Below are positions 7,565 through 19,991 of a stretch of DNA of 64,000 nucleotides, piece after piece. Below the pieces are notes generated by a model. That model did not search any database and was not told the DNA's origin. It worked only from the letters and a program-made list of their open reading frames with translations. The stretch's first letter is position 1; the number at the start of each line of letters is the position of its first letter. The position numbers and the translations under genes were made by a program. Source of the DNA: Longimicrobiales bacterium (GTDB lineage Bacteria > Gemmatimonadota > Gemmatimonadetes > Longimicrobiales > Gaopeijiaceae); contig OX639991.1 in NCBI GenBank assembly GCA_951828585.1, positions 434,001 to 498,000 on the forward strand. The letters are read 5' to 3'.

Positions 7565-8191
7565 CTACAACCCCCTCAGCACCTCCAGAATATCCTCGTT
7601 CGTCGGGCGCACCTTGTAGTCCACCTCCACGAAGCGGTACCGCACCACCCCCTCCTTGTCGATCACGTATGTGGCGGGGTGCGGGAACGGTCGCCGGCCC
7701 GGCGAGTCCTCATTGAACAGACCATACCGGTCGATCACCGCGTGGTCCGGATCCGAAAGCATCACGAAGTCGGGCAGGACTCCGTCGTCGTCGGAGATCT
7801 CGTCGATCATCCTCTTCATCCCCTCCTGGTCGTCCACCGAAACGGTCACGACCTCCGTCTGCTCCTTGAGTTCGTCAGGAAGAAGGGCTCTCAGCTCGCC
7901 GAGCTGACGGGCGCAGTAGGGTCACCAGTGGCCCCGGTAGAAGACCAGCACCACGAACTTCTGCCCCCGGAAGCTCGCCAGCTCCACCGCATCACCGCCG
8001 TACGACGCCAGAGTGAAGTTCGGCGCCTCGCCGCCCACGGCCACCCGTTCCAGGTCGGCGCGGGGCAATTCACGGCCGTCCGCGGGTCCAAGATCCTGCG
8101 CCTGCGCGTTGGACACGGGCCCGACCGCAACGAAGAGGGCGAGCAGCACCAGGGTGCCTGCAGTCATCAGGGATTGAATCGAAGATCTCAT
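7565..8191 (-). CDS. Secreted peroxiredoxin-like protein with in-frame UGA (probable selenoprotein)
   Basis: The frame is interrupted only by a TGA at 7924-7922, located exactly where AhpC/TSA-type proteins have the catalytic Cys: FYRGHW-U-PYCARQLGEL. Read through, the product has 208 residues: signal peptide ending in SNAQAQ, thioredoxin-like peroxiredoxin fold, U90 and Cys93 as a U-x-x-C pair, then VVTVSVDD, HPATYVIDKEGVVRY and a normal C-terminus. The homology is continuous on both sides of the TGA with no frame change. A hairpin suited to a bacterial SECIS starts 15 bases after the TGA. The protein probably reduces peroxides or thiols in the periplasm. The alternative, a simple nonsense mutation, is unlikely because a second peroxiredoxin here has UGA at its own catalytic position. 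Confidence 0.82.
7892..7906 (-). promoter_or_regulatory. Candidate bacterial SECIS hairpin (peroxiredoxin 1)
   Basis: CAGCTC-GGC-GAGCTG forms a 6-bp stem with a G-rich loop, starting 16 bases after the UGA at 7924-7922. Bacterial SECIS elements lie inside the coding region directly downstream of the Sec codon with a G-containing apical loop, so position and shape fit. The spacing is the same as in the second peroxiredoxin. Confidence 0.55.
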
Positions 8192-16081: not shown

Positions 16082-17191
16082 ATGGGTATGAAGAAAGCAG
16101 GAATCGCCTTGCTCGCCGGACTGGGCGCGGTGGTCGCGATCGCCGGAATCCACGGTCCTCTGGCGGCACAGGAGGGTGACCTCCGAGCTGGCTGGCAGCC
16201 CTACCTGGGGTGCTGGGTGTCGGTGGAGGCCGAGGAGGACCAGGGTGTCCTGTGCCTCGTCGAGGACGGCCAGGACGTGGAGATGCTGACCATCGTCGAC
16301 GGGGCGGTAGCGTTCAGCGAGCCCCTCGTGGCGGACGGCGGCACCCACGATTTCGAACGGGACGACTGCCAGGGCACCGAGTCCGCCCGCTTCTCCGAGG
16401 ACCGGCGGCGGCTGTACACCGCGTCCCTGGTGAACTGCGACGGCGAGCCCCCCCGGCGGAGCACCGGAATTATCTCCATGCCCGGTCTGGACGAGTGGGT
16501 CGACGTGCGGGCCATCGAGGCGAACGGTGCGACCACCGTCTGGTCGCAGCGATACCAGCGCACGAGCCACAGCGTGCTCAACCAGCTGGGACTGGCCGAC
16601 CCGGTCGCCCGCCCCAACCCCTTCGCGCTGCGCGGCGGGATCACCTACGCGACGGCCGCCATCACCATCGACGACGTGATCGACGCCTCCCGGAACGTCG
16701 ACACCGACGCGGTCAAGGGGTGGCTTGCGTCGGTGGAGCAGCAGTTCGAGGGCCTGAGCGCCGAGGACCTGATCCGCATGGAAGACGCCGGCGTGGCTAC
16801 AGCGGTGATCGATGTGGTGGTCGCGGTCTCGTTCCCGGAGCAGTTCGCCCTCAACGAGGAATTGGACAGTCCCGACCGGAACAGGTACATGTACGGATGG
16901 GCGGATCCGTTCTACTATCCCTATTACGGCTACGGCCGCTACGGCTACGGGGGTTATTATAACCGTTACTATCCCGGCTACTACACTCCGGTCGTTGTCT
17001 CCGTACACCGGCGGGGCGATGGCGGCGGCCAGGCCGTCGCGGGCGGGGGCTATCGCCGCCCCGGATCCGCCACCAGCAGTTCCGGCTACAGCGGCGGCTC
17101 GTCATCGGTCGGAAGCAGCGGCAGTAGCAGCAGCGGTAAGTCCACCAGAACCAGCACCGGCCGCAAGGCCGTCCGGCGTGGCGGCAAGTAG
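16082..17191 (+). CDS. Secreted protein B with Tyr-rich and Gly/Ser-rich tail
   Basis: About 369 residues. A signal peptide ends near GPLAAQ; a globular part (about 35-230) follows, opening with GWQPYLGCWVSVE. Then come a Tyr/Pro/Gly-rich stretch (YYPYYGYGRYGYGGYY) and a Ser/Gly-rich end finishing with RKAVRRGGK. No known family is recognised; an envelope structural or stress role would fit the low-complexity tail. The ATG at 16082 has GGAGGA at 7 bases and is preferred over 16028. It lies 66 bp after gene A and is probably co-transcribed. The tail sequence reappears fused to the duplicate of gene A near 18,700. Confidence 0.65.
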   Translation: MGMKKAGIALLAGLGAVVAIAGIHGPLAAQEGDLRAGWQPYLGCWVSVEAEEDQGVLCLVEDGQDVEMLTIVDGAVAFSEPLVADGGTHDFERDDCQGTESARFSEDRRRLYTASLVNCDGEPPRRSTGIISMPGLDEWVDVRAIEANGATTVWSQRYQRTSHSVLNQLGLADPVARPNPFALRGGITYATAAITIDDVIDASRNVDTDAVKGWLASVEQQFEGLSAEDLIRMEDAGVATAVIDVVVAVSFPEQFALNEELDSPDRNRYMYGWADPFYYPYYGYGRYGYGGYYNRYYPGYYTPVVVSVHRRGDGGGQAVAGGGYRRPGSATSSSGYSGGSSSVGSSGSSSSGKSTRTSTGRKAVRRGGK

Positions 17192-17213
17192 CACCTCCAC
17201 GTTCTCAACATTC

Positions 17214-17252
17214 ATGGCCGGGGCCGGCGACCTCTCGCCCGCCCCGGCCATG
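17214..17252. terminator. Strong hairpin at the start of the CcdA-like gene
   Basis: Two 17-base arms (beginning ATGGCCGGGGC and ending GCCCCGGCCAT) pair with one mismatch around a short loop. The hairpin follows the stop of gene B by 22 bp but also covers both candidate start codons of the next gene (17214, 17250). It could terminate the A-B transcript or hide the ribosome site of the downstream gene. There is no T tract. Confidence 0.45.
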
Positions 17253-17972
17253 CTTTCGTTCGTACAGGATTCGGCAGGGGGGCTCTCCGAGTCGCTCGCC
17301 TCCAGCCCTTTGCTGGCCGTGGCCGTCCTCTTCGGAGCAGGCGTTGCGACCAGCCTGACCCCCTGCGTCTATCCCATGATCCCCATCACCGCCTCGGTGA
17401 TCTCGGGGACTGCGCGGGACGGGCAACGGTGGAGCCGCACCCTGGCACTCACCATGACCTATGTCACGGGCATGGCGCTGCTCTACGCCACGCTCGGGTT
17501 GTTGGCGGGACTTACCGGCACCCTCTTCGGCACGGTGAGCGCGAGCCCCTGGGCGCTGCTGGCCATCGGCAACCTGTTGCTGTTCTTCGCGCTGGCCATG
17601 TTCGACGTGATCCCGATTCGGGTGCCGCAGCGTCTCATGGCGTGGGCGGGCGGGCGCGAGGGGGGTTCGTACGGGGCTGTCTTCGTGCTGGGGGCTACGT
17701 CCGGGGTGGTGGCCGCGCCGTGCGGGGCGCCGGCATTCGCGGCCGTGCTGGCGTGGGTGGCCGCCACGCGGGCCGGTTTCATGGGATTCGTGTACCTCTT
17801 CGTCTTCTCCATTGGGATGACCGCGCTGCTGGTGGCGGTGGGGCTCTTCTCGGGAACGATTTCGCGGCTGCCGAAGTCGGGTAAGTGGATGGTGGCGGTC
17901 AAGCGCGTGGCCGCGGTGATCATGCTGGGTGTCGCGCAGTATTATTTCATCCAGGCGGGGTATAATCTGTAG
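17214..17972 (+). CDS. CcdA/DsbD-like thiol-disulphide transmembrane protein
   Basis: About 252 residues with six predicted membrane helices. Two conserved Cys motifs, SLTPCVYPMIPIT (C51) and VVAAPCGAPAF (C170), match the redox Cys pair of the DsbD-beta/CcdA family, which moves electrons from cytoplasmic thioredoxin to periplasmic thioredoxin-like proteins. A TlpA-like protein is encoded at 18880 and a thiol peroxidase at 19407, which would be natural acceptors. The start may be 17214 or the ATG at 17250; both lie in a strong hairpin. Confidence 0.85.
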   Translation: MAGAGDLSPAPAMLSFVQDSAGGLSESLASSPLLAVAVLFGAGVATSLTPCVYPMIPITASVISGTARDGQRWSRTLALTMTYVTGMALLYATLGLLAGLTGTLFGTVSASPWALLAIGNLLLFFALAMFDVIPIRVPQRLMAWAGGREGGSYGAVFVLGATSGVVAAPCGAPAFAAVLAWVAATRAGFMGFVYLFVFSIGMTALLVAVGLFSGTISRLPKSGKWMVAVKRVAAVIMLGVAQYYFIQAGYNL

Positions 17973-18879: not shown

Positions 18880-19467
18880 GTGAGCACCCAGCAACATCTG
18901 CCCGGCACGCCCACCGCTGCGTGTTTCGCTCTCGCCCTCGCCCTCGCCGCTCCTACCGCCATCACCGCCCAGGAGCCGGAGGACGGACTGGGTCTCCTCG
19001 CCGGCACGCCGGCCCCCGACGCACAGGTAGAGGACATGGAGGGCAACGAGGTCTCGCTGCTCGAGGTCATCGGCGGCCGTCCCGCGCTGATCGAGTTCTG
19101 GGCGTCGTGGTGCGAGCAGTGCGAGGCGCTCCAGCCGGAGATCGACCGTGTGCAGGAGCGGTTTGGGGAGGAGGTGGCGGTGGTGGCGGTGGCGGTGGCC
19201 GTTTCGCAGTCGCGGCGGAGGGTGCGCCGACATGTGGAACGGCACGCGCCCGGGTACGACTACGTCTACGACGCAAACGGCGAGGCCGTGAGAGCGTACA
19301 AGGCCCTCACGACCTCGATCGTGGTGCTGGTGGACGGGGAGGGGCGGGTGGTGTCGACCGGCGTGGGGCCGGAGCAGGAGCTGGTGAAGGCGCTGGAGGC
19401 GCTGCTTCAGGACCCCTCGTCCGGCTCCGGCGTCACCTCGTCGATCGCGGCGGCCAGCTCCTCGTAG
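18880..19467 (+). CDS. TlpA/ResA-like thioredoxin-fold protein
   Basis: A 195-residue exported thioredoxin-fold protein. The signal region runs to about AITAQEP; then AGTPAPDAQVEDMEGNEVSL, the redox motif FWASWCEQC (C78/C81) and a C-terminal VVLVDGEGRVV strand. It is a periplasmic thiol-disulphide reductase, likely reduced by the CcdA-like protein encoded at 17214; the chimeric duplicate now sits between the two genes. The start is a GTG at 18880 with AGAAGG upstream. The last 61 bp overlap the convergent peroxiredoxin gene. Confidence 0.83.
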   Translation: MSTQQHLPGTPTAACFALALALAAPTAITAQEPEDGLGLLAGTPAPDAQVEDMEGNEVSLLEVIGGRPALIEFWASWCEQCEALQPEIDRVQERFGEEVAVVAVAVAVSQSRRRVRRHVERHAPGYDYVYDANGEAVRAYKALTTSIVVLVDGEGRVVSTGVGPEQELVKALEALLQDPSSGSGVTSSIAAASSS

Positions 19468-19991
19468 GCGGTCGGATCCGTCTGCCGGAACTGCGGGATC
19501 ACCTTGGCCACGCGGCCATCCGGCCCGACCACGATCACGGCGCGGCTGCCCACCATGCCGTTGTCCCGCAGCGATCCGCCAAACGCCGCGAAGCTGGCCC
19601 CGTCGGCGTCCGAGCCGAACAGGTAGGGGAAGTCCTCGTCCTTCAGCCATGAGGCGCCTTCTTCGGGCGAGTCGTTCGAGATCGCCATGAGTACCACGTT
19701 GCGGCCTTCGTTGAACAGTTCTGCGTACTGATCACGGTACGCTCTCATTTGAACCGTTCAGCCACGCGTCCTGACTCTGAAGAAGAATGCGAGGACCACC
19801 GTTTCGCCGCGGTAGTCGCTCAGCTTGACCTTGTCGCGGAGGACCCCGTGACGGGTCGCGCCGGTCAGCTCGAAGTCGGGGGCCATCGTCCCGACCTCGA
19901 TGAGGCTTGTTTCCTGGGCGGTGCCCGGGTTCGGCGCGGCCATTCCGACCGCTGCGGCCAGCGCGGCCGCCACCAGAAGTCTCCGTATCAT
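19407..19991 (-). CDS. Secreted peroxiredoxin with in-frame UGA at the peroxidatic position (probable selenoprotein)
   Basis: Reading through the TGA at 19760-19758 gives 194 residues: signal peptide (MIRRLLVAAALAAAVG... to GTAQ), VGTMAPDFELTGATRHG, VVLAFFFRVRTRG-U-TVQM, then AYRDQYAELF and a complete peroxiredoxin C-terminus. U78 replaces the catalytic Cys of the TxxC motif, and there is no other Cys after it, so this would be a 1-Sec type enzyme. The frame is unbroken on both sides. The start at 19991 has GGAGAG 5 bases upstream. A hairpin at SECIS distance follows the UGA. Its neighbours are TlpA-like and CcdA-like redox genes. Confidence 0.83.
19723..19742 (-). promoter_or_regulatory. Candidate bacterial SECIS hairpin (peroxiredoxin 2)
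   Basis: GCGTAC and GTACGC form a perfect 6-bp stem with an 8-base loop. It starts 16 bases after the UGA codon, the same spacing as in the first peroxiredoxin, although the two sequences are unrelated. Confidence 0.5.

Follow-up and report, generated by a model that had tools for sequence, protein, structure and literature searches.

The analysed window is a 64,000-nucleotide stretch of DNA whose minus strand carries, between 19991 and 19407, a frame of 195 codons including the stop. Its sole interruption is a TGA at 19760-19758, codon 78, in the motif TRG-U-TVQM, and 116 more codons follow directly after it in the same frame. The preliminary description of this DNA had the frame resuming three codons on; the continuation to a complete C-terminus stands, but it is immediate, and three codons on lies the next ATG. 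In agreement with that description, Cys is absent from the translated frame beyond the UGA; it is absent before it as well, so that Sec78 would be the only redox residue of the protein. The gene, its active-site and RNA features and two neighbouring genes are as follows.

19407..19991, minus strand: predicted Sec-peroxiredoxin gene of 194 residues, from the ATG at 19991 to the final TGA stop at 19409-19407, where homology in relatives ends
19917..19991, minus strand: putative cleavable export signal, residues 1-25, ending TA-Q (rule-based)
19779..19781, minus strand: Phe71, in place of the motif Pro of PxxxTxxC (alignment)
19767..19769, minus strand: Thr75 of the catalytic motif, Thr in 75 of 79 Sec homologues
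19758..19760, minus strand: in-frame UGA, predicted Sec78 at the peroxidatic position, TGA in 71/71 and TGC in Cys homologues
19542..19544, minus strand: Arg150, at the position of the catalytic Arg of peroxiredoxins, invariant in the alignment
19712..19760, minus strand: lower helix pairing 19760-19751 with 19721-19712, predicted for the window copy and partly kept in relatives
19723..19742, minus strand: SECIS-like hairpin, stem GCGUAC/GUACGC, loop CGUGAUCA, 15 nt after the UGA, fitting the bSECIS rules (PMC13188914)
18880..19467, plus strand: TlpA-like thioredoxin with WASWCEQC, convergent, overlapping the 3′ end of the peroxiredoxin gene by 61 bp
16812..17972, plus strand: DsbD_TM, a DsbD/CcdA-type transmembrane electron transporter (PF02683, 4e-47), with its true start inside the ORF

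The read-through protein matched the AhpC-TSA family PF00578 with 78.1 bits against a cut-off of 26 (E 7e-22). In its AlphaFold model (pLDDT 89) the fold is that of an ordinary BCP/AhpE-type peroxiredoxin, and Sec78 lies close to where an active-site helix begins. BCP proteins and the 1-Cys AhpE are among its best fold matches in the PDB, and the closest solved relatives by profile are mainly BCP-type peroxiredoxins. The earlier wording of two unrelated peroxiredoxins, with this one on an independent fold branch, was thus overstated, as the modelled fold is an ordinary one and the first gene resembles, by its motif, another redoxin. Besides Sec78, the active site retains Thr75 and Arg150, the latter of which we take, from general knowledge of peroxiredoxins, to act as the catalytic Arg. 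The PxxxTxxC/U motif is nevertheless incomplete, since the Pro expected seven residues before Sec is Phe71.

Homologues were compared in a dereplicated set of 98 representatives, 79 with Sec and 19 with Cys. The motif Pro was kept in all 19 Cys homologues versus 8 of the 79 Sec homologues, the other 71 carrying Phe (64), Tyr (6) or Val (1). A paired test on supported branches gave three independent Pro/Sec pairs and none in the opposite direction, which is too few for significance; the data strongly suggest, but do not prove, that Pro loss is coupled to Sec. No Cys besides the active-site residue was present in the cores of any of the 79 Sec and 19 Cys representatives, and the lack of a resolving Cys places the protein in the 1-Cys mechanistic class. 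A hydrophobic leader followed by an AQ-type cleavage site was recognized by rule in 72 of 78 Sec homologues, and the peroxiredoxin appears from its sequence to be exported.

The in-frame TGA is widely shared. Orthologues with TGA at the same codon, 46-91% identical, were found about 50 times among 98 related genomes, and TGA occupied this codon in nearly all of the more than 100 best matches listed from 395 genomes of the phylum. Most named records of these loci come from Gemmatimonadota MAGs, among them Longimicrobiales, Palauibacter and the BD2-11 clade. Comparison with Cys-containing homologues, which the preliminary description had proposed, placed TGC at exactly the UGA codon, bearing out its claim that the UGA stands in place of the peroxidatic Cys. 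Its view that this could not easily be coincidence also holds, as UGA and hairpin are conserved in dozens of independent genomes. In three records titled Gammaproteobacteria (L075, L076 and L078) the copy shows no difference over 180 residues from that of L038 (G033), whose genome is placed in the window's own family, and these titles are probably wrong. A different BCP-type protein with TPGU (L138, G092:C3) is, on sequence grounds, a second kind of predicted Sec peroxiredoxin within the phylum, and a distant family member (L219, G136:C159) has Ala at the catalytic position (FTDGATAEM) and is possibly inactive.

The host genome, a single contig of 4.47 Mb and 99.5% complete, encodes the full set required of a selenoprotein-making bacterium: selA (E 1e-125), selB (a SelB winged helix match, 1e-8), the tRNA-Sec gene selC (79.7 bits) and selD (E 9e-115). 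The two components whose absence had been named as grounds for rejecting the idea, selB and tRNA-Sec, are thus present in the same genome, together with selA and selD. The host selD (L011, G000:C1:1180470-1181396) has an internal TGA, and SelD is itself probably a selenoprotein. Across genomes, selA, called by TIGR00474 above its cut-off, turned up in all 26 of those tested that carry the Sec form versus 7 of 19 whose best family member lacks an in-frame TGA (Fisher p 1.8e-6); these genomes were hand-picked, one of them (G086) is only 72% complete, and some of the 19 hold more distant paralogues, among them L219 with its Ala.

A perfect 6-bp hairpin, GCGTAC-CGUGAUCA-GUACGC, starts exactly 15 nt past the UGA, as the preliminary description had it. 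The bSECIS model (PMC13188914) calls for a stem of 4-16 bp, a loop of 3-9 nt with G among its first two positions, and a distance of 16-37 nt between UGA and loop; the window hairpin agrees on every count, with 6 bp, an 8-nt loop with G second and then U, and 21 nt. An Rfam search of the window at the gathering cut-off found nothing. All six stem pairs were invariant across 51 different DNA sequences of Sec forms; the exact stem occurred in 78 of the 79 dereplicated Sec homologues versus 1 of the 19 Cys homologues, and the whole 20-mer in 69/79 versus 0/19. A search of the whole 4.47-Mb genome for the spaced stem pattern gave a single occurrence. The six hairpin codons are essentially frozen in Sec forms, which shows selection acting on the RNA; among them are CGT (kept in 74/79, against 8% of Arg codons in the rest of these genes) and GAT (75/79; background 26% of Asp codons). 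Covariation was looked for among the Sec sequences and none was seen, because the stem pairs never vary; the support for the hairpin is its conservation in Sec forms and its decay in Cys forms, as read from the sequences. The 10-bp lower helix was paired in 72.9% of cells across relatives, with the innermost pairs often broken, and as a whole is probably not essential.

These data bear on two readings in which the UGA is not decoded. Under translation table 11 the ORF is split, as would be expected if the UGA were a genuine stop codon or an error of sequencing and the gene a pseudogene or base-call artefact; against this, purifying selection is strong on both sides of the UGA (dN/dS 0.02-0.11 3′ of it), and dozens of relatives, each assembled independently, share the TGA at this codon, which excludes both a decayed gene and the misread TGC or TGT that the preliminary description had raised, leaving this explanation a vanishingly small chance. 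An ORF from the ATG at 19748 (TVQ-M) to 19407 does exist, and the UGA could in principle end one protein and precede a second in a split two-gene redoxin. Yet the TVQ between UGA and ATG is conserved, both halves are needed for the modelled fold, Cys homologues form one uninterrupted gene, and Sec machinery correlates with the TGA, so we consider a two-gene arrangement highly improbable. On the sequence evidence, the UGA at 19760-19758 is a selenocysteine codon and not a stop, and the best explanation of 19991-19407, in which we have high confidence, is a predicted exported 1-Sec peroxiredoxin decoded through SelB and recycled by an external thiol.

In a quick tree, grouping of the Sec forms as one clade was rejected (p-AU 0.0003), as was that of the non-Pro forms (p-AU 0.0002), indicating that the Sec/Cys and Pro traits each changed more than once. 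Several Sec/Cys switches appear to have occurred within this family, while Sec-to-Cys change in prokaryotes is described as rare (PMC13188914). Because the hairpin letters are common to all Sec forms, Sec was more likely gained once and lost several times than gained repeatedly. Three independent Sec-to-Cys reversals (L119, L123 and L184) were considered and set aside, as the grouping of the three in one clade was not rejected (p-AU 0.85). Two relatives carry adjoining Sec and Cys copies in tandem (L198, G140:C14; L208, G120:C19).

Among 77 flank-bearing loci, which are partly redundant with some genomes counted twice, a TlpA-like gene lay near the peroxiredoxin in 63 and DsbD_TM did so in 59, almost always in convergent orientation. 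The window encodes together a transporter, a TlpA-like donor and a putatively exported peroxiredoxin, the gene set of ScsB-TlpA-PprX-like systems. This suggests a periplasmic relay of thioredoxin, DsbD, TlpA and seleno-peroxiredoxin, in which the TlpA-like thioredoxin is the probable electron donor, a guess given that the TlpA and DsbD neighbours are missing in some relatives.

We propose that SelB with Sec-tRNA would bind the hairpin 3′ of the UGA at 19760-19758 and Sec would enter position 78, a step that we infer from conservation and the presence of the Sec machinery. The mature protein would fold like BCP/AhpE, with Sec opening the active-site helix as in the AlphaFold model, and the Sec78 selenolate, aided by Thr75 and Arg150, would attack the peroxide to give a selenenic acid. 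Because the protein has no resolving Cys, oxidised Sec78 would have to be recycled by an outside thiol, most likely that of the neighbouring TlpA-like thioredoxin. At each peroxide turnover, electrons would pass from cytoplasmic thioredoxin to the DsbD-type membrane protein, on to the TlpA-like protein and then to Sec78, a route that the conserved gene neighbourhood points to. Selenols need no help to ionise at neutral pH, and for this reason the enzyme may tolerate an aromatic residue in place of the motif Pro.

The protein could instead be a selenoprotein whose task is not scavenging of H2O2, acting as a thiol-selenol oxidoreductase or as a reducer of lipid hydroperoxides or sulfenylated envelope proteins; the motif Pro is gone in 71 of the 79 Sec forms and thiol-exchange proteins are its neighbours. 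Retention of the peroxidase-site Thr and Arg and the complete PxxxTxxC of the Cys homologues argue against such a role, and a single redox residue would fit a peroxidase better than a disulfide exchanger; we regard it as unlikely. We put forward tentatively, and as more doubtful than probable, a selenium relay in the envelope that would span the phylum: Sec would free the active site from its otherwise conserved Pro, the Pro-to-aromatic and Cys-to-Sec changes would be functionally coupled, the oxidant preference would differ, and the TlpA-like protein would resolve the selenenic acid.

Under standard annotation, this gene would come out split or truncated throughout a phylum of environmental bacteria, hiding a conserved, predicted envelope peroxidase and its selenium requirement. 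Natural Sec/Cys pairs, some in tandem, also occur in the family; in them the active-site Pro changes with the chalcogen, making the effect of Sec in a peroxidase directly testable at residues 71 and 78.

Sec peroxiredoxins with TxxU in PF00578 are a described class whose motif is given as PxxxTxxU (PMC13188914), and the gene studied here is an uncatalogued, phylum-wide variant of it. What is new is a Cys-free, apparently exported protein whose motif Pro is mostly lost in the Sec forms, unlike in all 19 Cys forms. Judged by title and abstract, the papers found on selenocysteine peroxiredoxins in Gemmatimonadota do not describe this gene, and none of the curated NCBIfam models claims the window protein, which scored 43.8 bits against the PrxU equivalog NF040737 (cut-off 270) and 49.6 bits against the BCP/PrxQ thiol peroxidase NF006960 (cut-off 140). 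PrxU of the Eubacterium acidaminophilum type shares the PF00578 fold and Sec at the peroxidatic position of TxxU, whereas most members here have Phe or Tyr for the motif Pro, and the window protein is putatively exported and contains no Cys. BCP/PrxQ and the 1-Cys AhpE of M. tuberculosis have the same fold (TM-score to target 0.84-0.88), and AhpE likewise lacks a resolving Cys; the window protein differs from them in Sec for Cys and a putative signal peptide, with ~25-31% identity in the structural alignment. The first Sec redoxin gene of the window (minus strand, UGA 7922-7924, FYRGHWUPYC) also has a UGA-coded Sec predicted in a redoxin-type site, followed by a 6-bp stem, CAGCTC-GGC-GAGCTG, at the equal 15-nt spacing that the preliminary description had reported; it carries UxxC (UPYC) in contrast to TxxU here, stem and loop sequences differ, and the two genes are likened by motif only. 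The Caulobacter envelope, for which Cho et al., according to PMC5403849, demonstrated electron flow from ScsB to TlpA to PprX by experiment, has the same set of a DsbD-like transporter, a TlpA-like thioredoxin and an envelope peroxiredoxin. In comparison, the peroxiredoxin here is a predicted selenoprotein, likened to PprX by gene set, and the electron flow is the one that we infer from gene neighbourhood alone.
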